The notes under the pieces: model-generated | What the model was told of the DNA's origin: nothing | The model's input: the letters and a program-made list of their open reading frames with translations, nothing else | Databases searched by the model: none | Shown here: positions 49,274 through 58,188 of the stretch, piece by piece | How the letters are laid out: every line of letters starts with the position of its first letter | Position numbering within the stretch: the stretch's first letter is position 1 | Origin: Candidatus Palauibacter rhopaloidicola | GTDB lineage: Bacteria > Gemmatimonadota > Gemmatimonadetes > Palauibacterales > Palauibacteraceae | Length of the DNA: 64,000 bases | Direction of reading: 5' to 3' | Assembly: GCA_026914155.1 (NCBI GenBank) | Contig: JAPPGH010000054.1 | Location: 62,001 to 126,000, forward strand | Made by a program: the position numbers and the translations under genes

Positions 49274-50326
49274 ATGACCGTCATGCGAAACCGAACGTCA
49301 TCCGTTATGACCCTGGCGCTGCTGGGCCTGGCCGTGGTCGGGCTCCGGGCGCGTCCCGCCAACGCACAGGTGCCGAAGGTCACCGCCAGTGAGGTGGTGG
49401 ACCGCGAGACCCTGAAGGGGTTCGTGACCTGGGCGACGGCCGTCTCCGCCGCCATTACCGACATCAACGAGGGGTCCCGTCTCATCCAGGCCGTGAGGAC
49501 GGAGGGCAGCGACTACAACGTGGGGAACATGTACCTGATCCTCATGACCCCCGATGGACAGGTGTTCATCCACGGCGAAGACCCTCACATCGATGGCACG
49601 AACGTCTCTGAGGTGGTGGACGAAAACGGGACCAAAGTCGTCCGGCAGATGCTTGCCGCCGCGGCGGCCGGGGGCGGCTTCGTGGAGTGGTGCTGGGACG
49701 ACCCGCAGGATCCGGGTGACCCCCGCTGCAAGGACAGCTACGCCCTTCAGTACCATTCCCAGGTGCTCGGCGCGGATCTGGTCATAGTCGGGGGGTACTA
49801 CCAGAATCTTTCGAACGCCGGGCAGCCGCTCCCTCCCGTCCCGCATCCGGAGGTCACCGCCGCCGATGTGGTAGACCGCGAGACGCTGAGGCAGTTCGTG
49901 CATGGCTCTCTCGACTGGCTGCTCGAACTCGTCGGGCAGGTCGGTTTCCAGCGCGCGACCGAGTGGAAGGCCTTGATGCGAGAGGAGGGCGGCCCGTTCA
50001 AGTCCGGCCCGATCTATCTCTTCGTCTTCACTCCCGAAGGTTATGTGATCTTCCACGGCGCGGACCCCTGGCGTGAAGGCCGTACGGTCATCGACAACAC
50101 GGACTTCCGGGGGAGACCGTTCGTAAGGGAAGTCATCGCCGTAGCCCAGGGGGGTGGAGGATTCGTCGAGTACTTCTGGGACGACCCGACGGTACAGGGG
50201 GATGAGGACACCGGAACGCCCAAGGTGAGTTACGCCGTCTCGTACAAGAGCGACCTACCCATCTACCAGGGCGTCGAGTTCATCGTCGGTGCGGGGTTCT
50301 ACCGGGACCACATAGATATGTCGTAA
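49274..50326 (+). CDS. Exported tandem Cache-domain protein
   Basis: 350 residues from ATG 49274 (ATG 49283 three codons later). Signal peptide MTLALLGLAVVGLRARPANAQ. Two homologous Cache units follow: one with MYLILMTPDGQVFIHGEDP and GGGFVEWCWDDP, the other with IYLFVFTPEGYVIFHGADP and GGGFVEYFWDDP. Each unit begins with a matching VVDRETL..FV helix. Cache domains bind small extracellular ligands, normally on receptors, but no kinase, HAMP or membrane anchor follows here. It may act as a free periplasmic binding protein. Confidence 0.85.
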   Translation: MTVMRNRTSSVMTLALLGLAVVGLRARPANAQVPKVTASEVVDRETLKGFVTWATAVSAAITDINEGSRLIQAVRTEGSDYNVGNMYLILMTPDGQVFIHGEDPHIDGTNVSEVVDENGTKVVRQMLAAAAAGGGFVEWCWDDPQDPGDPRCKDSYALQYHSQVLGADLVIVGGYYQNLSNAGQPLPPVPHPEVTAADVVDRETLRQFVHGSLDWLLELVGQVGFQRATEWKALMREEGGPFKSGPIYLFVFTPEGYVIFHGADPWREGRTVIDNTDFRGRPFVREVIAVAQGGGGFVEYFWDDPTVQGDEDTGTPKVSYAVSYKSDLPIYQGVEFIVGAGFYRDHIDMS

Positions 50327-50366
50327 CCTGATTTATAACAGCAAATTACGGCACATGGCCGTAGGC

Positions 50367-50379
50367 GATGTATCACTCA
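50367..50379. repeat. Left 13-bp direct repeat, candidate attachment site
   Basis: GATGTATCACTCA, identical to 56477-56489 beside the integrase start. It is followed by AGAATACAC, which also recurs near the right end (56509-56517) but 19 bp farther from the repeat. The site sits in an AT-rich gap after the Cache gene. Confidence 0.5.
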
Positions 50380-50414
50380 GAATACACATTTCTGAGCGAG
50401 ATTTCGTTGAACCC

Positions 50415-50438
50415 AATCGGATGTCGCCGGATCCGATT
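50415..50438. repeat. 8-bp-arm inverted repeat near the left element end
   Basis: AATCGGAT and ATCCGATT are perfect arms around GTCGCCGG. Located 35 bp inside the candidate left end and past the propeller gene's stop. It could be a terminator stem or an integrase/accessory binding site; there is no T-tract. Confidence 0.45.
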
Positions 50439-50520
50439 CCGGTTATCGACGGAGGCGGTTGGTACTCCCAAGCTCAGGACCAGCCACCCCCAATGGCGGA
50501 TGCGGCGGCGTGCTGCGTAC

Positions 50521-51708
50521 TCATCGTCGCCCGGTCGGCAGCCGCCGCACCACCACGCTGGACACGTCGAATTCGTCACGCTCGATGAACGCCGCCAACC
50601 CATCCGGACCGAAAGCGTCGGGCATCTCGGTCGTGCCAGCAGCATAGGTCCCAATGTAGCTGCCATCCGGGGTCAGTAGGTCGATCGGACCATCGCTGGC
50701 CGGCTCGTCGCCGCGGCGCTGCACCCAAATCGTCCCCTCCCAACTCGTGCGCACGGTGCGTACGACCGGGACCTCGTGGTAGAACTCCATGTTCCTGATT
50801 CGTCTCCGCCCCAATTCAGCAAAGGCGTCGCCGAACTGATCATTTCGCGAACTCGCGTCCGCCTCGTTATCCGCCAACAGGCGTTCGATCTCTCCATCCC
50901 TGATCGCGTCGGTCACAGGCTCAGGCCGAAACGGTCGGGTGAGCACCCGACTAAGTTCTCCGTTGCGAGTAGCCACCTTGATGGCGTAGGCGGACGAGTC
51001 CGTGTAGACCAAGCCGCCGTCCGGGAGAGCTCTCGCGACCAAGGGAGGTCCGAAACCGTCAGGATCTCCCGATGGCCGCCACGCTTCGATCACCGTGTCT
51101 TGCACGGCCTCGTCCCCAGTGAGGACCAACCGATAGACGGGACGAAACGATGGCTCGGGACCGTCGGCCGGGCCGCCCATGTTGAAGCCACCTAAACTGG
51201 TCGTGATGACGTTCTGGCCGTCCCTCGCAGGCGCCAAGGTCCGGATCAGGTAGAGCGAGGTGCCGGGCATCCGCACCGATCTCTCGAACTCCCCGTGCGG
51301 TGCAAACACTTGAAAGGCACTGTGACCCGCGTCGAACACCACCGTGCGCCCATCGCGGAGCACGGTGAATCCGATGGCGGTGTTGGTGCTCGCGGCGAAT
51401 TCACCCGGCCCATCGCCGAGCCGTCCGAACTCGCGAACGAACTCGCCCTCCCGGCTCATAACCACGATCCGTCCGCCTTGGTCGTCCATCACGTACAGGT
51501 CGCCGGACTGGCTGAAGCCGACCGCGCTGACCCGGCTGAACACCTCCCAGTCCGCACCATCGACGGACCCCACCCGGTAGACCTCCTCGAACGCGGGTTC
51601 GATGTGGGTGTCCCGGCTTGGAAGTTCGATGACTTCTTGAGCTTGGAGAGCCGGGGATCCGAAGCCGAAGATGATTCCGACGGCAACTCGGGGAAAACTT
51701 GGGATCAT
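50521..51708 (-). CDS. Exported 6-bladed beta-propeller protein, possible element cargo
   Basis: 395 residues from ATG 51708, with AGGAGG eleven bases upstream. Signal peptide [15 protein letters not shown]. Repeats include [25 protein letters not shown] followed by [13 protein letters not shown], homologous to the chromosomal paralogues at 14988 and 32627. It lies between the candidate left repeat and the endonuclease gene, so it may travel with the element or mark an island boundary. Function unknown. Confidence 0.82.
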
Positions 51709-51882
51709 GACTCTGGTAGCCTCCTGAAACGCGCGACACTGCTAGCGTTTGGATGAACCAACCTCAAGCTACGGTTGCCCGTCTCGGCAGGGGCCGGCTT
51801 GGCAGGGCCAAGAGGCCGCCATTCTCCCGGTCGCTGCGAATCCCGGTCGATCCTCAGCAGCTCGGTGCTGAATCGCGGTCCA

Positions 51883-52881
51883 CTAGTCAATCGGAATGAA
51901 CACCCGTTTCAGCGGGATCATCGCGCGAGCTTCCGGCTCCATCCGCTCGTAGTGCTCCATCAACAACTCGATGAACTCGTCACCCTTTAGCGTGGTTACC
52001 GATGTTCCTTGTGGAGTCCGGTCCGCTTCGTACAGCGCCTCCCGCGTGAATCCGCCGGTCGAAACGAAGAGCCCCCGGTCCGGCGACCGAAGCGTGGCAA
52101 TGAAGTTCCGCATGTCCCCCACGCTCGCTCGTTGGCTTCGATGCTTCACTTGGACCTTGATCCGCGGTGAATCGAGCCCGAGGGCGTCGGACGTGGCTAC
52201 GACATCCACGCCTCGATCCGGTCCCTTCTCCGTCCTGCGGGCGAAATAACCCATCGAGCGCAAGAGCGCGGCCACCAGTTCCTCGAAGTCGAAGGGGTCC
52301 ATGTGTGCGATCCGGTCCGAGATCTGTTCCTCAGCCTTGCTCTGCACGTCCTCGTAGAACTGGAACCCCGATCCCTCGTCGGCTTCGGCACCCAAGGACT
52401 CCGGGCGCTCCCGACCCGATGCGACCGCCTCGATTTCGTCCCGGTGGTCATTCATGGAGAAGAGTGTCAGCGTGCTGCCTGCACTGTTCTTGGCCGGTCC
52501 GGTTAGCTCGTCTCGCGAAATCCTCTTCGTCCAGTTGATCGGTCGCGTGTGAGGAAGGTCTCCGTCCCGGCGGGGATCGTAACGGTACGGTCCGGCGCAT
52601 GTCCCGAACAGTATCTCCCGCGTGTCCGTGACCGGAGTCAGGATCAAGTCGCCCTCCCGGATCTCATGCACGAAGCGGTAGAGCTGGCTCGCCCCATTGA
52701 TCAGGCGACCCTTCTTCATGTTCGGATGCTCTCGCGCCAACTCCGACAGAAATGCGTCCCGAGACTTCAGTTGCGAGAGGTCCTTACGGATGGAGAACCC
52801 AATCGCGGCGATGCCCGCCTCCTCGAACCGATCCGCGTAGACACCGCCGCCGCCCGCTCTCACTACCCAGATGTTTCTCAA
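51883..52881 (-). CDS. Mrr-like restriction endonuclease
   Basis: 332 residues from TTG 52881, which has GGAG seven bases upstream and begins LRNIWVVRAGGGG, the usual opening of this family. The N-terminal half is a binding module (GLINGASQLY-like region, EGDLILTPVTD). The C-terminal Mrr_cat nuclease has FEELVAALLRSMGY, DRGVDVVATSD with the catalytic Asp, and IKVQVKHRS with the QxK motif. Mrr enzymes cut modified DNA. No methylase is adjacent. It probably defends the element or host. The open frame to 53115 beyond the TTG has no match. Confidence 0.86.
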   Translation of the reverse strand: MRNIWVVRAGGGGVYADRFEEAGIAAIGFSIRKDLSQLKSRDAFLSELAREHPNMKKGRLINGASQLYRFVHEIREGDLILTPVTDTREILFGTCAGPYRYDPRRDGDLPHTRPINWTKRISRDELTGPAKNSAGSTLTLFSMNDHRDEIEAVASGRERPESLGAEADEGSGFQFYEDVQSKAEEQISDRIAHMDPFDFEELVAALLRSMGYFARRTEKGPDRGVDVVATSDALGLDSPRIKVQVKHRSQRASVGDMRNFIATLRSPDRGLFVSTGGFTREALYEADRTPQGTSVTTLKGDEFIELLMEHYERMEPEARAMIPLKRVFIPID

Positions 52882-53148
52882 CTCAGGACTCCGATGGTTC
52901 GGTGATGCGACCGAGCACTGCACAGTTCCCACATGGCTCCAGGTCTTGGGGCTTGGTGCGCTCGGTGCTCTCGTGGTGGGTGTCGTGACCAATACGGTTG
53001 CCGTGGGGCTCGGGTCGTCGCTGCGACCGCTCGCCCCTCGCAGCTTCGACGGTAGGGGATGCAATGGGCTCCGTAAAGGGACTCCGGCCCGTGCGCGGAT
53101 GCGTGGTCGGCGCATCTGACGCGGGCCGATTCACCGGCCGACGCACCC

Positions 53149-54678
53149 TCAGCGGCTCGGACCGGCATCGCGGTCCGGCCCGCGCGGCGGCGGCCTTATC
53201 ACCAGCCGCGGCCGCGCGGTCTCGCGACGCCAGATGTCTCGTAATATTCGGTCAAGCCTGTCACTCGCTCGTCGAGCCGCTCGATTCGCCGCCTCAAGGT
53301 GGCGTTCTCCTCGGTCTGCCGCTCGACTTGCCGCCGCAAGGCTTCGACCTGTTCGGATTGCCGCCGCCGTTCCGTTTCGGACTGCACGGACAACTTCTTC
53401 AAGGCCTCCGTCAACTGCCCCTCCAACTCGGTCATACAGCTTCCTCGCTCTCTTGATGGCTTTCAGGCAGGCCGTCCGCGCCAGATCCAGCGCGGCTTGT
53501 CCAGCGTCCCCGACGGCCCCACCACGGCCTGCTCTTCCTCGATCTCCGGCAGCGCGATCCTCCAAGCGGCCATCTCGATTCTCGCGAGCGTCCGCCGGGT
53601 CTCCGCGATCTCGCAGTCCAATTCGGCCACCGCCTCGATCCGGGCTGGGATGCTCCTCGACCGCCACCGCATCGTCGCCCAGCTTCCGGCGGAGATGCCG
53701 AGCGAGCGGTTCAGGCCGAACGTCAGCGGCTTTGGCCAAGCCTTCTGCGGCAACGTGTGCATCCGCGCGGCCTCTTCCTCCGTAACGAGCCCGATGGTAC
53801 GCAGCGCGTTCCTCGCGGCGCGCCGCGAGTTCTCGTCGGGCCGCCCGAGCTCGCTCACGGTCAACTTCCCTGTCTCCCTGCGTCCGCTCTCCAGCCGCCT
53901 CCTCAGCCGCTCGGTCGGATCGTTCGGGCTGGAAGTCAATGGCGTACAGCCGTCCCTTCAGCCGCCAACGGTCCCCGGTGTCGGGGTCCATCGCGGTCAG
54001 GTAGTCCTTGCCTTGGCGCGGCACTTCCAAGCCCGCCTCCCGGAGCGCGGCGACGACATCGAAGCGGTCTTTCACCACGCCGTGCTCGACCCGCTGGATC
54101 AGGTAGTCTCGGATCAGGTCGCGCGGTGCTGCTTCGAGCCGGAGTCCGGCCCGCAGTCGCGCCGCCTCGACGTAGGCGCGGTGTCCGGGCTGCTCCACCC
54201 TGGCCCGGGCCGGATCGTCCGGACGGCCCCAGCCGTGCTCGTGGTTGAAGGCGTCCCGGAGCGGATCGAACGTCCTCCGCCAGCCCGGAGGGGCGATGTT
54301 CAGGCTGCGGCCGGTCTCAAGGTCGCATCGCGCAGCGAGAACGTGGACGTGGGCACCGCCGCCCTCCTCGCGGTGGAGCACCGCCGCCCATGCGTAGCGG
54401 TCGGGTTCGAGCCCCGCCCAAGCCGTCTCCTCGAAAGCGTCCAGAACCGCCTCGATCTGTTCGTCGGTCGGTTGGTCCTCCGGTGCCCATGCGATTACGC
54501 CGGAGGTGTACCTGTGCTCGAAACCCAGAGTGTCCGCCACCGACGCCACCCGGTGGGGATCACCCCGAAGGACCTCGACGCCTTCGCGCGTCCTCCCGGC
54601 CGCGTCCCGCTCCCCGAGGAGGTATTTGGCCGCCGCCCGCGCCGATCCGGTTCCGCGCGCCAGGAACTTAATGTGCAT
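53149..54678 (-). CDS. mobA: Relaxase, ColE1 MbeA-like
   Basis: 509 residues. The N-terminus MHIKFLARGTGSARAAAKYLLG, then YTSGVIAWAPEDQ and EPDRYAWAAVLHREEG, follows the layout of ColE1 MbeA. The likely DNA-linking Tyr is Tyr19. The metal site is His102, His110 and His112 (GGGAHVHVLAARCD), a three-His version of the HEN triad found in ColE1. The C-terminal half is Arg-rich and overlaps mobB and mobD in another frame. It nicks oriT and leads the strand into a recipient. Start overlaps mobC by 11 bp. Length equals that of MbeA (about 517 aa). Confidence 0.88.
   Translation of the reverse strand: MHIKFLARGTGSARAAAKYLLGERDAAGRTREGVEVLRGDPHRVASVADTLGFEHRYTSGVIAWAPEDQPTDEQIEAVLDAFEETAWAGLEPDRYAWAAVLHREEGGGAHVHVLAARCDLETGRSLNIAPPGWRRTFDPLRDAFNHEHGWGRPDDPARARVEQPGHRAYVEAARLRAGLRLEAAPRDLIRDYLIQRVEHGVVKDRFDVVAALREAGLEVPRQGKDYLTAMDPDTGDRWRLKGRLYAIDFQPERSDRAAEEAAGERTQGDREVDRERARAARRELAARREERAAYHRARYGGRGRADAHVAAEGLAKAADVRPEPLARHLRRKLGDDAVAVEEHPSPDRGGGRIGLRDRGDPADARENRDGRLEDRAAGDRGRAGRGGAVGDAGQAALDLARTACLKAIKRARKLYDRVGGAVDGGLEEVVRAVRNGTAAAIRTGRSLAAASRAADRGERHLEAANRAARRASDRLDRILRDIWRRETARPRLVIRPPPRGPDRDAGPSR
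53199..53435 (-). CDS. mobD: MbeD/MobD-like coiled-coil protein nested inside mobA
   Basis: 78 residues in the +1 frame relative to mobA, the same frame as mobB. MTELEGQLTEALKKL is the typical MbeD/MobD opening, followed by a continuous heptad coiled coil (EALRRQVERQTEENATLRRRI) to residue 60. ColE1 mbeD is also about 70-80 residues and lies within mbeA. ColE1 MbeD is linked to entry exclusion and mobilization. Identification rests on sequence pattern and position. Confidence 0.8.
   Translation of the reverse strand: MTELEGQLTEALKKLSVQSETERRRQSEQVEALRRQVERQTEENATLRRRIERLDERVTGLTEYYETSGVARPRGRGW
53463..53939 (-). CDS. mobB: MbeB/MobB-like mobilization protein nested inside mobA
   Basis: 158 residues in the +1 frame within mobA. 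The N-terminus has a Leu/Arg helix, LTVSELGR and NSRRAARNALRTI; the middle segment LTFGLNRSLGISAGSWATMRW is hydrophobic. A coiled region (RIEAVAELDCEIAETRRTLARI) and the C-terminal W..LPEIE..VVGPSGTLDKPRW..GRPA follow. This order and closing motif resemble MobB/MbeB proteins, whose membrane segment links the relaxosome to the transfer channel. Nested location matches ColE1. Confidence 0.78.
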   Translation of the reverse strand: MTSSPNDPTERLRRRLESGRRETGKLTVSELGRPDENSRRAARNALRTIGLVTEEEAARMHTLPQKAWPKPLTFGLNRSLGISAGSWATMRWRSRSIPARIEAVAELDCEIAETRRTLARIEMAAWRIALPEIEEEQAVVGPSGTLDKPRWIWRGRPA

Positions 54679-55006
54679 CGGCTTCCGGGCTCTCGGCGGG
54701 ATCCAAGGCGCCGAGGGCCCGGTCGATGGAGACCAGATGGGAGATCACCTCGACGGCCTCGATGGCTTCCTTGTGGGTATTGGCCCAGCGAGCGATCTGG
54801 TTGAGGTTGTTCCCGAGGCGCGCCAGTTCGCGGGTGCGCTCGCGCTCGACCTCGGCGTGCGCCACGGTCCACGTCCGCACCCGGCCAATCGACCGCCGCA
54901 CAAGGTCCGACAGGGTCAAGCCCGCCGAGCGCGCCTTGGCGTGCCACTCGGCACGCTCCGCCTCGGAGGCGCGGACCTTCACCCAGACGGCGCGTCCGGC
55001 GCTCAC
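54668..55006 (-). CDS. mobC: MobC-like relaxosome accessory protein
   Basis: 112 residues. KVRASEAERAEWHAKARSAGLTLSDLVRRSI is a ribbon-helix-helix-like DNA-binding segment, and the family hallmark RELARLGNNLNQIARWANTH follows. MobC binds near oriT and helps strand separation for the relaxase. The stop overlaps the relaxase start (GATGCACATTAA). It opens the mob operon, with the candidate oriT directly upstream. An earlier GTG/ATG start cannot be excluded. Confidence 0.9.
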   Translation of the reverse strand: MSAGRAVWVKVRASEAERAEWHAKARSAGLTLSDLVRRSIGRVRTWTVAHAEVERERTRELARLGNNLNQIARWANTHKEAIEAVEVISHLVSIDRALGALDPAESPEADAH

Positions 55007-55297
55007 GGCGCGACGTTTCCGTTGTGGGGGTCACAGGGGGCACGGCCCCCCGCCAGCCCCTGCCGGGGACTCGCGGAGCGTGGCCCCAAAGGGTGGGCTG
55101 GCTCTCCCGCATTAGCGGGCCAAACCATCCGCCGAGGCGCGGAATCCGGGGTCGTCGGAGTTGCCATGACGTGAAGTCAGGCGACCGTTTCGGGCGGTGT
55201 CAACAGCCGTCGAAACGGCGACGTCCAACGACTTCCAGCACCGTCCCGAAGACGGACCGACCGTCGCCAATGGCACCTCCGTTGCTACCGGCCAGCC
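55007..55297. other. Candidate oriT and regulatory region between mobC and the integrase
   Basis: 291 bp without a gene. It holds CCCGC-ATTA-GCGGG (55106-55119) beside TGGGCTGGCTCT, GGGGG-CACGG-CCCCC (55036-55050), and an 8-bp-arm repeat CCGTTTCG/CGAAACGG (55185-55218). Inverted repeats directly upstream of mobC fit an origin of transfer; the ctggc next to the first repeat is loosely like ColE1-type nick regions. The nick site is not assigned. Confidence 0.5.
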
Positions 55298-56470
55298 CTA
55301 TCGCCTCGTGACGTACTCGCTCCACTCCTGAAGGACCTCGGCCCTCCTCTCCAGCAGGTCGGAGCGCTGGTACGCCTGAACGACCTTGCTCCTCGGCACA
55401 TGGGCGAGGCAGGCTTCGGCGACCTCTGCGGAGACCCCGGACTCCGCCATCCACGACCGGGCGCTCGACCTGAAGCCGTGCAGCGTCGCGGCCGCCCCGG
55501 CTCGCCTGAGGACTCGTAGCGGCGCCTTCCTCGGCAGCGTCGCGCCCGTCCGGGATGGGAACACTAGCGTAGACCCGCCCGACAGCCTGCGCGCCCGCCG
55601 AAGCACGTCGAGCGCGCCCGTGCTGAGCGGGACCGCGAACTCGCGGCCCGCCTTCATCCGGGATGCCGGTATCGTCCATGTCGCCGCGGCCATGTCGATC
55701 TCGTCCCAAAGCGCGCCTCTCGCTTCGCCCGGTCGGACCGCGGTGAGGACGATCAGTTCAACGCACAGAGCCGCCGAAGGGTGCGTGTCGGAGGTCCGGC
55801 AAACCGCTCGTAGCGCGGCGGCGACCTCTCCGTACGGGAGCGCCCGGTGGTGGGTTGTCGTGTGGCCGTTCGCCTTCGGCAGCGCAACGACCGCCCGGTC
55901 CACCGGGTTGTCCGCCCGGTAGTTTCGACCGATGCACCAGCGGAAGACGGCGGTGATGCGGTGCTGGGCCTTCCGCGCCGCTGCGGGCTTCGAGTTCCAG
56001 ATCGGCGAGAGGCACGCGAGCACGTCCGCGCTCTCGATCCGGTCCACCCGCTTGTCGAGGAGCGGGGCGGCATGGAGGCGGAAGGTGGACTCCCACTGCT
56101 CGGGAAGCGGGCTCCCATCCTTCCACGCCTCGCGGTGAAGCTCGATGGTCCGCTCGGCGGCCTCGGCGAAGGTCGGGACGCCGCGTCCGCGCGGGTCCTG
56201 GCCCAAGAGGACGCCCCGGCTGTTGTCCAGCGCCTTCTGGCGGGCCTCGGCAAGCGTCACCTCGGGATACGGCCCGAGTCCGATCGAGGTGAGCCGCCCC
56301 TCGATCCTGACGCGCTGACGCCATGTCTTGGTGATCCGGCCATCCAGCGTCCGGTGGACGCGAAGGCTCAGCCCGCGACCGCCGCGCCCGTCGCCGTAGA
56401 CTCCGGGTCTGTTGACCGTCCGCACAAAGGCGGCGGAGAGTGTTCTGGGCCGTTTCATCATGGGTTCCAT
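55298..56470 (-). CDS. Tyrosine recombinase, P4-type integrase
   Basis: 390 residues from ATG 56470; ATG 56461 has a better-spaced GAGG. The N-terminal Arm-binding domain (DUF4102-like: GRGLSLRVHRTLDGRITKTW, IGLGPYPEVTLAEARQKA) precedes a core-binding domain at about 100-195. Catalytic residues are present: Arg246 (TAVRPGEAR), Lys273, His331 and Arg334 (HGFRSSARSW), His357 and Tyr367 (VVQAYQRSD). It integrates and excises the element. Such integrases often use tRNA genes, but none is adjacent. Confidence 0.93.
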   Translation of the reverse strand: MEPMMKRPRTLSAAFVRTVNRPGVYGDGRGGRGLSLRVHRTLDGRITKTWRQRVRIEGRLTSIGLGPYPEVTLAEARQKALDNSRGVLLGQDPRGRGVPTFAEAAERTIELHREAWKDGSPLPEQWESTFRLHAAPLLDKRVDRIESADVLACLSPIWNSKPAAARKAQHRITAVFRWCIGRNYRADNPVDRAVVALPKANGHTTTHHRALPYGEVAAALRAVCRTSDTHPSAALCVELIVLTAVRPGEARGALWDEIDMAAATWTIPASRMKAGREFAVPLSTGALDVLRRARRLSGGSTLVFPSRTGATLPRKAPLRVLRRAGAAATLHGFRSSARSWMAESGVSAEVAEACLAHVPRSKVVQAYQRSDLLERRAEVLQEWSEYVTRR

Positions 56471-56476
56471 CCTCGT

Positions 56477-56489
56477 GATGTATCACTCA
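56477..56489. repeat. Right 13-bp direct repeat, candidate attachment site
   Basis: GATGTATCACTCA begins 6 bp before the integrase start codon on the outer side and is identical to 50367-50379. GATGTA here also pairs with TACATC at 56500-56505. AGAATACAC (56509-56517) repeats the sequence adjoining the left copy. Confidence 0.5.
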
Positions 56490-56610
56490 TTGCAGCACTA
56501 CATCGAGAAGAATACACCGGATCGCGATAGACTTCAAGGGACGACGAGGATTCGGAAATAACCTATAATACGTTGTCTAATAACGTTTTATTGATACCGT
56601 ATGATACGGC

Positions 56611-58188
56611 ATGGGATGGTGTCGGACACGCTGTACCGAGTTCTACCGGAATTTCTCCACCGCCGAGGCGGAGATGGCGGCGGCCGACTGGCTCGAGCGG
56701 TTCGGCCGCTCGGTGGCGAGCCAGGCCATGGAGATGATCGGCAACCGCGTCTCGCACGCGGCCGGTGGACCCGACCGGGTGACGGTCGGCGGGCGCACGA
56801 TCGACCTCGCGGCGGCGGGCGCGCGAGGCGGACCGTTCGGCGGCCTCAACGCCCTGGCGTCCGCGGCTTCCTCCACGAGCCGGATGGCGCCGACGGCGTT
56901 CCTCCCCTCGTCCGTGGGCGGACTCCTCGGTGAGACCTCCTTCCAGGTCTCCACCGGGCAGGCTGCGGGGGGCGGCGGCGACTACTCGCTCTGGGGCGCG
57001 GGAGAGTTGACGCGCTTCTCGGCCGGCGAGGGCGGTGGGTCGGGTCACGGCGAAATCGTCACCGCCGCGCTTGGCGCCGACTACAGGTTCGGATCGGTAC
57101 TCGCCGGGCTCGCCGTGTCCCGCAGTCTCGGGTCGGGTGGATTCGACCTGGGACGTGCCGGAGAAGATGACGCCGGCGACGTGTCGACGAGACTGACCAG
57201 CGCCTTCCCCTACGCCCGGCTCGCACTCAGCGATCGCCTCTCCCTCTGGGGCGCACTCGGGTACGGGTTCGGCCGGCTGGACATCTCCGGGAGCGGAGAG
57301 CAGGAGCCTTCGAGCGACATCTCCATGCGCATGGTCGGACTGGGGGCGCAGGGTGAGCTTGTGCGGGCCGACGATCCGGGAGACTTCAAGCTCGCGCTGC
57401 GGTCGGATGGCTTCGTCGCGCAGATGAACTCCGAGGAGGTCGATGGTCGGCACGAACTCACGACCGATGTGAGTCGCGTGCGCGTGATGTTCGATGCCTC
57501 GAGGGGATACACGCTCTCGTCCGGCGAGACGGTCCAGCCGAATCTGCGGGTCGGCATGAGACGCGACGGGGGCGACGTGGACACCGGCTTCGGGATGGAA
57601 CTGGGAGTCGGTCTCGCCTTCCTCGACCTGGAGCGGGGCCTCACGGTCTCCGTGCACGGGCGCAAGCTCGTGGCGCACGAACAGAGCCACTACGAGGAGT
57701 GGGGCCTGGGTGGGTCGATCACGCTCAACCCGCAGGGGGCGGGACGCGGGCTGTCGCTCCGCGCGAGTCCCTCCTGGGGGTCGACGGCGAGCGGTCTGGC
57801 GCGGCTATGGGCGCAGGGCGCGACCGGGTTGACGCCGAACGCGTACGGCTACGGCCACGGCAGCCGCCGGCTTGATGCGGAGATCGGATACGGCGTCGAC
57901 GCGCTGGCGGGCCGGGGCACCTTCACGCCGTACGCGAGACTGGTCCTGTCGGAGCAGCCGGGCGCGGGTCCGTCCGGCGCGGGCCAATTGGGCGCGGGCC
58001 CGTTCCAGGGTCCGCTGGCGCTGGTTCCGCTCCAGGGATCGGGGCAGAGCCTGTACGGCTACCATCTGGGCGGACGCCTCAACGTCGGCTCGGGCCTCTG
58101 GCTCAACGTCGAGGGGGGCCGGAACGCCTACGGCGCCGCGTCGGGCCCGGCGAACAGCGTGACGCTCAACCTCGCCATGAACTGGTAG
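56611..58188 (+). CDS. Autotransporter beta-barrel domain, probably truncated at its N-terminus
   Basis: 525 residues from the first available ATG (in-frame stops at 56581 and 56602). It begins inside the linker helix AADWLERFGRSVASQAMEMI and the bridge ASAASSTSRMAPTAFLPSSVGG, then the barrel: alternating strands from GDYSLWGAGELTRFS to the C-terminal SVTLNLAMNW. There is no signal peptide or passenger, which such proteins need for export. A GAG-repeat loop (GAGPSGAGQLGAGP) lies near residue 455. It starts about 120 bp beyond the element's right repeat, so the 5' part may have been lost in an insertion or deletion. Confidence 0.8.
   Translation: MGWCRTRCTEFYRNFSTAEAEMAAADWLERFGRSVASQAMEMIGNRVSHAAGGPDRVTVGGRTIDLAAAGARGGPFGGLNALASAASSTSRMAPTAFLPSSVGGLLGETSFQVSTGQAAGGGGDYSLWGAGELTRFSAGEGGGSGHGEIVTAALGADYRFGSVLAGLAVSRSLGSGGFDLGRAGEDDAGDVSTRLTSAFPYARLALSDRLSLWGALGYGFGRLDISGSGEQEPSSDISMRMVGLGAQGELVRADDPGDFKLALRSDGFVAQMNSEEVDGRHELTTDVSRVRVMFDASRGYTLSSGETVQPNLRVGMRRDGGDVDTGFGMELGVGLAFLDLERGLTVSVHGRKLVAHEQSHYEEWGLGGSITLNPQGAGRGLSLRASPSWGSTASGLARLWAQGATGLTPNAYGYGHGSRRLDAEIGYGVDALAGRGTFTPYARLVLSEQPGAGPSGAGQLGAGPFQGPLALVPLQGSGQSLYGYHLGGRLNVGSGLWLNVEGGRNAYGAASGPANSVTLNLAMNW

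Follow-up and report, generated by a model that had tools for sequence, protein, structure and literature searches.

Does the chromosome of a marine Gemmatimonadota bacterium hold a mobilization operon of the ColE1 type, with two genes nested inside the relaxase gene, and are all of its genes still maintained? The question is raised by a 64,000-nucleotide stretch of Candidatus Palauibacter rhopaloidicola (assembly GCA_026914155.1, contig JAPPGH010000054.1, positions 62,001 to 126,000; hereafter the window), in which an earlier reading of the letters alone (the sequence-only reading) had recognised mobC, the relaxase gene mobA and, in the +1 frame of mobA, two further genes, mobB and mobD, beside an integrase. 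The chromosome carries a 6.3-kb integrative mobilizable element at about 50306-56649. Comparison with relatives makes it quite likely that this is a helper-dependent, ColE1-style element in which mobB has been lost in the clade of the window, and mobD and mobA have been kept.

The layout of the operon is as first read, in coordinates and in frames: all four genes are encoded on the minus strand, with an 11-base overlap of mobC and mobA, and the two +1-frame ORFs are contained in mobA (Table 1). The gene order mobC-mobA-mobB-mobD is that of ColE1, and homology to MbeA, MbeB and MbeD was found. Across its residues 1-317, MobA shares 31% identity with MbeA of ColE1, Tyr19 being aligned, and residues 1-486 match the NCBIfam MbeA model NF047848 at 4.4e-27, the 95 bits falling short of the strict cutoff of 500. 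The metal triad of MobA is H102-H110-H112, where ColE1 has H97-E104-N106; an excerpt of PMC9282650 gives the His-Glu-Asn signature motif as HQD-x4-ELNF. Because the triad is HHH and not HEN, strict membership in MOBHEN, the ColE1 clade MOBP5, does not hold, so that the proposed ColE1-type operon stands in its gene order and its homologies, and not in the signature of its relaxase.

A profile built from 32 intact mobB sequences of relatives aligns with ColE1 MbeB (probability 96.6, E 4.9e-10, columns 25-149), the two having TWGV and an LP motif in common, and the score of 64 for MbeB compares with a maximum of 18.1 among 100 shuffled MbeB sequences. The homology to MbeB rests on this controlled profile comparison because PF04837, one of the families suggested earlier for the nested ORFs, is matched neither by the window mobB, which has no match among the Pfam or NCBIfam models, nor by any of the 32 intact relatives. 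In an AlphaFold model of the MobB of an intact relative (mean pLDDT 78.6, pTM 0.27) a single long helix is accompanied by four strands, and a fold search with this model returned no match at E below 0.001. The other suggested family, PF04899 (MbeD_MobD), does match the window mobD, at 2.3e-4 and with 21.7 bits barely over the cutoff of 21.6, and NF033829 matches at 4.5e-6, under the cutoff of that model. All 32 mobD relatives match PF04899 at E<=0.1, and for the window copy and the relatives the matches include many generic coiled-coil families. The mobD profile compared with ColE1 MbeD reaches a probability of 92.8.

Upkeep of the nested genes was compared in 68 distinct full-length mobA genes, obtained from 115 tblastn matches with partial and duplicate copies left out, and grouped by mobA identity to the window into the window clade (the window, L008 and L037-L039), a sister group (L040-L044 and L066) and 57 others. 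The +1 frame is open over mobB in 65/68 genes (exceptions L040, L044 and L066) and over mobD in 67/68 (exception L064), and the -1 frame in 0/68 and 1/68, respectively; a control stretch without nested genes (mobA codons 70-225) is open in the +1 frame in one gene and in the -1 frame in 31. An open +1 frame is by itself no evidence, because when the synonymous codons of the window mobA were re-drawn with the codon usage of its codons 1-240 (4000 trials), the mobB stretch kept the frame open in 74% and the mobD stretch in 78% of the trials. In so GC-rich a gene, the length of an ORF proves nothing on its own. An open nested frame in GC-rich DNA tells little without comparison.

Such a comparison was made with pN/pS ratios by pairs, with 95% intervals obtained by resampling codons 60 times in up to 40 pairs. 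Among the 57 others, the frame +1 pN/pS of mobB is 0.55 (0.44-0.67) in 103 pairs at 0.90-0.99 identity and 0.70 (0.63-0.80) in 120 sampled pairs at 0.80-0.90 identity; that of mobD is 0.59 (0.45-0.81) and 0.80 (0.64-1.09) in the same two ranges, and that of the N-terminal control is 2.69 and 1.79. Frame-0 synonymous change in the mobB stretch is lowered to 0.47-0.70 of that in the N-terminal region, the conservation at synonymous sites of the overlap that the sequence-only reading had proposed as a check. Both nested genes are conserved and, by these ratios, under selection in the relatives, and are thus real there.

The window copy of mobB departs from this pattern together with its closest relatives. 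The 11 sequences of the window clade and the sister group form one clade (support 0.999; FastTree, codons 1-238, midpoint-rooted), and the nearest sequence outside it, L055, has an intact mobB. Homologues with an interrupted +1 frame, which the sequence-only reading had named as telling against the nested genes, occur inside this clade (stops in 3/11, namely L040, L044 and L066) and nowhere outside it (0/57; Fisher p 0.003). A GGAG, GAGG or AGGA motif precedes the nested mobB start in 55/57 of the others and in 0/11 of the clade. The frame +1 pN/pS of mobB is 1.42 (0.89-3.72) in the window clade, 0.95 (0.72-1.24) in the sister group and 1.20 (0.84-1.76) between the two, and frame-0 synonymous change in the mobB stretch is unreduced in both. 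The hydrophobic peak of the product (maximum 19-residue mean), which is 1.27-2.13 in the intact sequences (n=57), is 0.62-1.34 in the sister group (n=6) and 0.54-0.82 in the window clade (n=5).

The same loss is apparent when the two overlapping products are compared. MobB of the window is 54/61/43% identical to its counterparts in L045/L060/L003, against 68/77/55% for the intact L055, whereas MobA, encoded by the same DNA, is 64/70/54% identical in the window and 61/70/54% in L055. The idea that constraint in the window clade had passed over to mobA from mobB was rejected, as MobA in the overlap diverges equally with or without mobB. In a search of 390 genomes with the mobB profile, the copies that span at least 150 of its 166 positions and are thus near full length (a hand count, with at most nine candidates scored per genome and shorter copies, some with stops, excluded) split into 74 at 253-285 bits and 10 at 169-187 bits, the scores of the low group being depressed by construction because the model was built without it. 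Internal stops are found in 0/74 of the high-scoring and 6/10 of the low-scoring copies; the window copy, at 174.9 bits, has one TGA. In four genomes (G061, G064, G078 and G225) 8 or 9 mobB matches each were found, and their mobB copy number is high and probably underestimated.

The window mobB is therefore probably a decayed remnant, in a clade that lacks the ribosome-binding motif and the purifying selection seen elsewhere and in which mobA diverges normally, and the comparison indicates that mobB was probably lost once in this clade. For mobD, frame-0 synonymous change relative to the control is 0.16-0.81 in the window clade, 0.14-0.57 in the sister group and 0.46-1.24 between groups, and frame +1 pN/pS is 0.46 (0.12-2.30), 1.03 (0.49-3.49) and 0.73 (0.38-1.70), respectively. 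The case for its maintenance in the window clade rests on the reduced synonymous change and on conservation, because the frame +1 interval is wide; on these grounds, mobD of the window is apparently maintained. Of the two plausible nested proteins proposed at first, MobD thus looks kept and MobB in this copy does not.

Several points weigh against this account. The pairs share history and are not independent, and the intervals come from codon-only bootstraps in which each frame was treated singly; in the window clade they are wide for both nested genes, and the sister-group value for mobD is close to one. The groups were defined after stops had been noticed in sister-group members. The window mobB still spans 158 codons, with 54% identity to an intact mobB, and 3/6 sister-group ORFs keep a hydrophobic peak of 1.31-1.34, within the intact range. 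These last observations would suit a reading in which all four genes still work and the TTG-started, 158-residue product is a variant of a fast-evolving mobB, as would the open +1 frame over mobB in 8/11 clade members and the colinearity of the window mobB with intact mobB save at its ends (hhalign E 3.6e-39 against the intact profile, 54% identity being to its first row). Such a working mobB is improbable, for openness is expected in 74% of re-draws, the hydrophobic segment is lost throughout the window clade, the ribosome-binding motif is missing in 11/11, frame +1 pN/pS is about 1 or higher, and the low-scoring near-full-length copies, in the hand count and with a model that excludes them, often carry an internal stop.

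The element that carries the operon has well-defined ends. The 10-mer GTTCTACCGG occurs on the plus strand of the window only at 50296 and 56640, with one more copy on the minus strand. A long match to the right flank is present in 11 other genomes of the genus (17 searched, the window's own included); in 9/11 of these congeners no more than 8 nt separate the left flank from the right, and in the remaining two, G056 and G072, the same site is occupied and split across contigs. The integrative element in a Gemmatimonadota chromosome, at first suspected from the neighbouring integrase, is thereby borne out by its repeats and nine empty sites. The interrupted gene encodes a Cache-domain protein and is whole in G149 (L126), with 857 codons and the core at codon 342. 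A tRNA gene as the target was discarded, as there is none between 17.1 and 64 kb and the empty site lies inside a protein gene.

Table 1. Features of the element and its insertion site (window coordinates)
Feature	Position	Strand	Description
Host gene, left fragment	49274..50326	+	Cache domains PF17200 9.2e-29, PF08269 5.3e-27
Left integration core GTTCTACCGG	50296..50305		Element/left-flank junction; left-flank match in congener G149 stops at 50305
Propeller cargo	50521..51708	-	6-bladed beta-propeller protein (DUF5128), PF17170 2.8e-6
Nuclease cargo	51883..53115	-	Mrr-type, PADLOC candidate defence family PDC-S02 6.5e-92; Mrr_cat PF04471 3.9e-24
mobA	53149-54678	-	509 aa; MOBP-type relaxase, Tyr19 and H102-H110-H112; PF03432 (Relaxase) 9e-7, NF047848 4.4e-27
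mobD	53199-53435	-	Nested in mobA, +1 frame; 78 aa, ATG start; apparently maintained
mobB, probable remnant	53463-53939	-	Nested in mobA, +1 frame; 158 aa, TTG start, early stop
mobC	54668-55006	-	112 aa, GTG start; relaxosome accessory protein, NikA/MobC type; PF21983 (NikA-like) 1.4e-14, PF05713 (MobC) 8.1e-11
Predicted oriT	55036..55120		AGCCAG..CTGGC inverted repeat and GGGGGGCCGTGCCCCC hairpin, upstream of mobC
Predicted nic	between 55101 and 55102	+	GGTGGGCTGG^CTCTC; position inferred from ColE1
Integrase	55298..56470	-	Tyrosine integrase with arm-binding domain; PF00589 9e-19, PF22022 2.2e-14, PF13356 9.2e-12
Host gene, right fragment	56611..58188	+	Continues G149 ORF past core; first ATG inside element; no Pfam match
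Right integration core GTTCTACCGG	56640..56649		Element/right-flank junction; right-flank match in congener G149 starts at 56641

Identity between G072 and the window reaches 98.2% in the left part of the element and 96.0% in the mob block, against 81% (adjacent 0.95 kb) and 92% (next 3.1 kb) in the left flank and 83% in the right flank. This difference between element and flanks suggests that the element moved between the species after their split. Beyond oriT, G072 has a GmrSD-like gene and an integrase 77% identical to that of the window, and modules are thus exchanged. The G072 site seems to be a composite (L119, C43:12000-30000) of a window-type mob block, the GmrSD-like gene, another integrase and a second recombinase, and on contig C2 of the same genome (L131) a window-type integrase is joined to the right flank. 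Of the 45 loci with more than 3 kb of upstream sequence, 19 have an integrase of the window type no further than 4.5 kb upstream of mobA. The cargo looks like phage defence, with the PDC-S02 Mrr-type nuclease in the window and a HEC-05/GmrSD-like protein in G072 (L119:6252-8096). Propeller-like sequence follows mobA directly in the related elements L042 and L043, with no Mrr-type nuclease in between.

Upstream of mobC lies a predicted oriT. The pattern AGCCAG-NNN-AC-N15-45-CTGGC, formulated after inspecting the sequences, is present on the mobC strand in 41/46 distinct upstream regions (all except L056, L073, L084, L091 and L101), in 0/2300 composition shuffles and in 0/46 opposite strands. 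The ColE1 record contains TAAGCCAGTATAC in the same orientation to mobC, and this includes the complement of CTGGCTTA, which according to an excerpt of PMC5703827 holds the ColE1 cleavage site, the nic sequence being common to pSDH-1 and ColE1. ColE1 has the shorter form of the pattern and lacks the full one, which includes the second arm. Relative to CTGGCTTA, the window has CTGGCT in the same place and orientation and differs in the final two letters (CTGGCTCT); by analogy with ColE1, nic is predicted on the plus strand. The claim of an oriT rests on the conserved sequence, because by free energy the window oriT folds no better than shuffles (z-score -0.88; 37/200 shuffles fold equally well), which, like the late formulation of the pattern, counts against it.

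Neither VirD4 nor VirB4 was found in the assembly (PF02534 and PF03135 searched), and the annotated genes of the element include none for mating-pair formation; a helper is presumably needed, since no VirD4 or VirB4 was found. The absence of the two families is a weak one, because the assembly is a draft (95.8% complete, 6.1% contaminated) and few control genomes were positive (5/14 for PF02534, 1/14 for PF03135). The same assembly holds two relaxases with stronger PF03432 matches, L001 (C8) and L002 (C39), in frames of 570 and 699 codons. An excerpt of PMC11389934 defines iMOBs as integrative mobilizable elements with a relaxase and an oriT and without a mating apparatus. The window element resembles an iMOB in having its own integrase and relaxase (Pfam), a predicted oriT, defined ends and empty sites elsewhere; that it excises and transfers with a helper is presumed, the contrast between element and flanks in G072 being an indirect sign.

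An integrated plasmid or island that is dead and has lost its mobility would also leave a decayed mobB and no helper genes in the assembly, and no excisionase gene was noticed in the element, a profile search for one not having been made. This alternative is nevertheless unlikely, as the two core repeats and the frames of the integrase, mobA, mobC and mobD are all intact, elements like it turn up in other species amid flanks that have diverged further, and mobA genes of the mobB-less clade 93-94% identical to that of the window are found in G042 (family f1) and G234 (family f6). It is barely credible that the nested ORFs code for nothing anywhere and are open by chance in the GC-rich tail of a relaxase gene: synonymous re-draws of 12 genes do keep the mobB stretch free of +1 stops in 38-89% of trials, but frame-specific purifying selection acts in the 57 relatives, a ribosome-binding motif precedes mobB in nearly all of these, the frames are homologous to ColE1 MbeB and MbeD, and a Methylomarinovum plasmid bears the same nested pair.

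The system most likely works like ColE1 mobilization. The integrase would recombine the GTTCTACCGG repeats, excise a circle and reinsert it into the Cache-domain gene. MobC and MobA would form a relaxosome at the ColE1-like oriT upstream of mobC, where MobA, by means of Tyr19 and the HHH metal triad, may nick the plus strand near 55101/55102, and the nicked strand would then leave through the type IV secretion apparatus of another element. In most relatives, translation of the +1 frame within mobA would yield two more proteins, a membrane-anchored, MbeB-like MobB and a coiled-coil, MbeD-like MobD. The window clade would have lost MobB, whose frame would now drift, and have retained MobA together with a MobD that presumably continues to function.

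Relatives of mobA are present in 37/395 genomes of the phylum and in 4/138 genera. A scan of GTDB contigs gave 150 stretches encoding a relative, of which 79 loci were kept, labelled as Gemmatimonadota (43), Pseudomonadota (20) and Acidobacteriota (16). Some of the Pseudomonadota labels look wrong: the pairs RHO1_bin_70/G390, RHO2_bin_50/G225 and SB0675_bin_31/G280 match at identical contig coordinates, and because these coordinates coincide with those of genomes of the window's class, the public names of the three "Gammaproteobacteria" metagenome-assembled genomes appear mistaken, which touches L046, L050, L055, L057, L068, L076 and other loci. Two loci come from chromosome-level assemblies, L078 (Bryobacterales, Acidobacteriota; 6.2 Mb) and L060 (Longimicrobiales; 4.5 Mb), and each has one full-length mobB without stops. 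The relative G042/L039 belongs to Candidatus Palauibacter, the genus of the window. Among viral contigs, 13 stretches fit a pattern and none encodes a mobA relative.

The window's own genome (G000) carries three further relaxases of the family, at C63:3854-5371 (L003), C63:211106-212356 (L006) and C32:475-765 (L004). Two of these have a full-length mobB, and the C32 copy ends within mobB, beside an integrase-like ORF. Contig C63 starts and stops near relaxase copies, as if the assembly had broken at repeats. A tentative and rather doubtful idea is that elements of the mobB-less clade are freeloaders that dropped MobB because co-resident relatives supply it in trans. An intact copy accompanies the near-full-length decayed mobB in 7/8 genomes, the window's genome having two. 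Several copies per genome are, however, common in these hosts anyway, and no intact copy was found in G042. If the idea is true, the decay of a gene inside a gene would reflect cooperation and cheating within one element family.

Among known systems, the mbeC-mbeA-mbeB-mbeD operon and bom of ColE1 (NC_001371) resemble the window element in gene order, in the mobC/mobA overlap, in the nesting of both accessory genes in the relaxase gene, in Tyr19 and in the AGCCAG..TAC block upstream of mobC. They differ in that ColE1 is a plasmid and the present operon is chromosomal, in the HEN triad where the window has HHH, in the limited identity of MobA (31%, first 317 residues), in the position of rop between the AGCCAG..TAC block and mbeC, and in the N-terminal Pfam domain of MbeB, which is unrecognised in the window element. 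The best plasmid match found, IN45P of Methylomarinovum tepidoasis (NZ_AP024719), is 60% identical over MobA residues 1-264 and shares the HHH motif in the same place, a nested mobB (hhalign E 6e-17), a nested mobD-like frame and the oriT pattern (L118:4488); unlike the window element, it is a 20.5-kb plasmid of a gammaproteobacterium with mobB intact. The nested mobB and mobD frames of IN45P (L118:4589-6518) are missing from its gene table, and MOB-suite classes the plasmid as non-mobilizable.

For the ColE1 clade on plasmids, an excerpt of PMC5703827 (citing Francia 2004) gives one or two genes inside mobA as a typical trait, and internally encoded MobB and MobD are listed in an excerpt of PMC9282650. 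The MOBP5 (MOBHEN) modules of small plasmids, as presented in parts of PMC5703827, PMC3832669 and PMC3632715, likewise have mobC upstream, but are carried by Proteobacteria plasmids and bear the HEN signature; in the same literature, the embedded ORFs of pSDH-1 are without mobilization domains. With the iMOB class, as outlined in PMC11389934, the window element shares the integrase, the att repeats, the relaxase, the oriT and the lack of mating-pair genes, its likeness to the named examples SGI1, Tn4451 and NBU1 being by class definition only. A search of the open-access literature found no paper on nested mob genes in elements of Gemmatimonadota or Acidobacteriota. As far as that literature was searched, three things are new: a setting in chromosomes outside the Proteobacteria and with defined ends, the pairing of an HHH relaxase with two nested genes in many loci, and the decay of one of these nested genes. 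One clade lost selection on one nested gene, with normal divergence of the gene around it and apparent retention of the nested gene next to it, so that the same DNA can serve as a natural control for the upkeep and loss of overlapping genes; the useful novelty here is that a nested gene decays within a host gene that is preserved. Ordinary gene calling would probably overlook the pool of nested genes in such elements, which extend the ColE1 mob layout of genes inside a gene from plasmids to chromosomal elements of Gemmatimonadota and Acidobacteriota.

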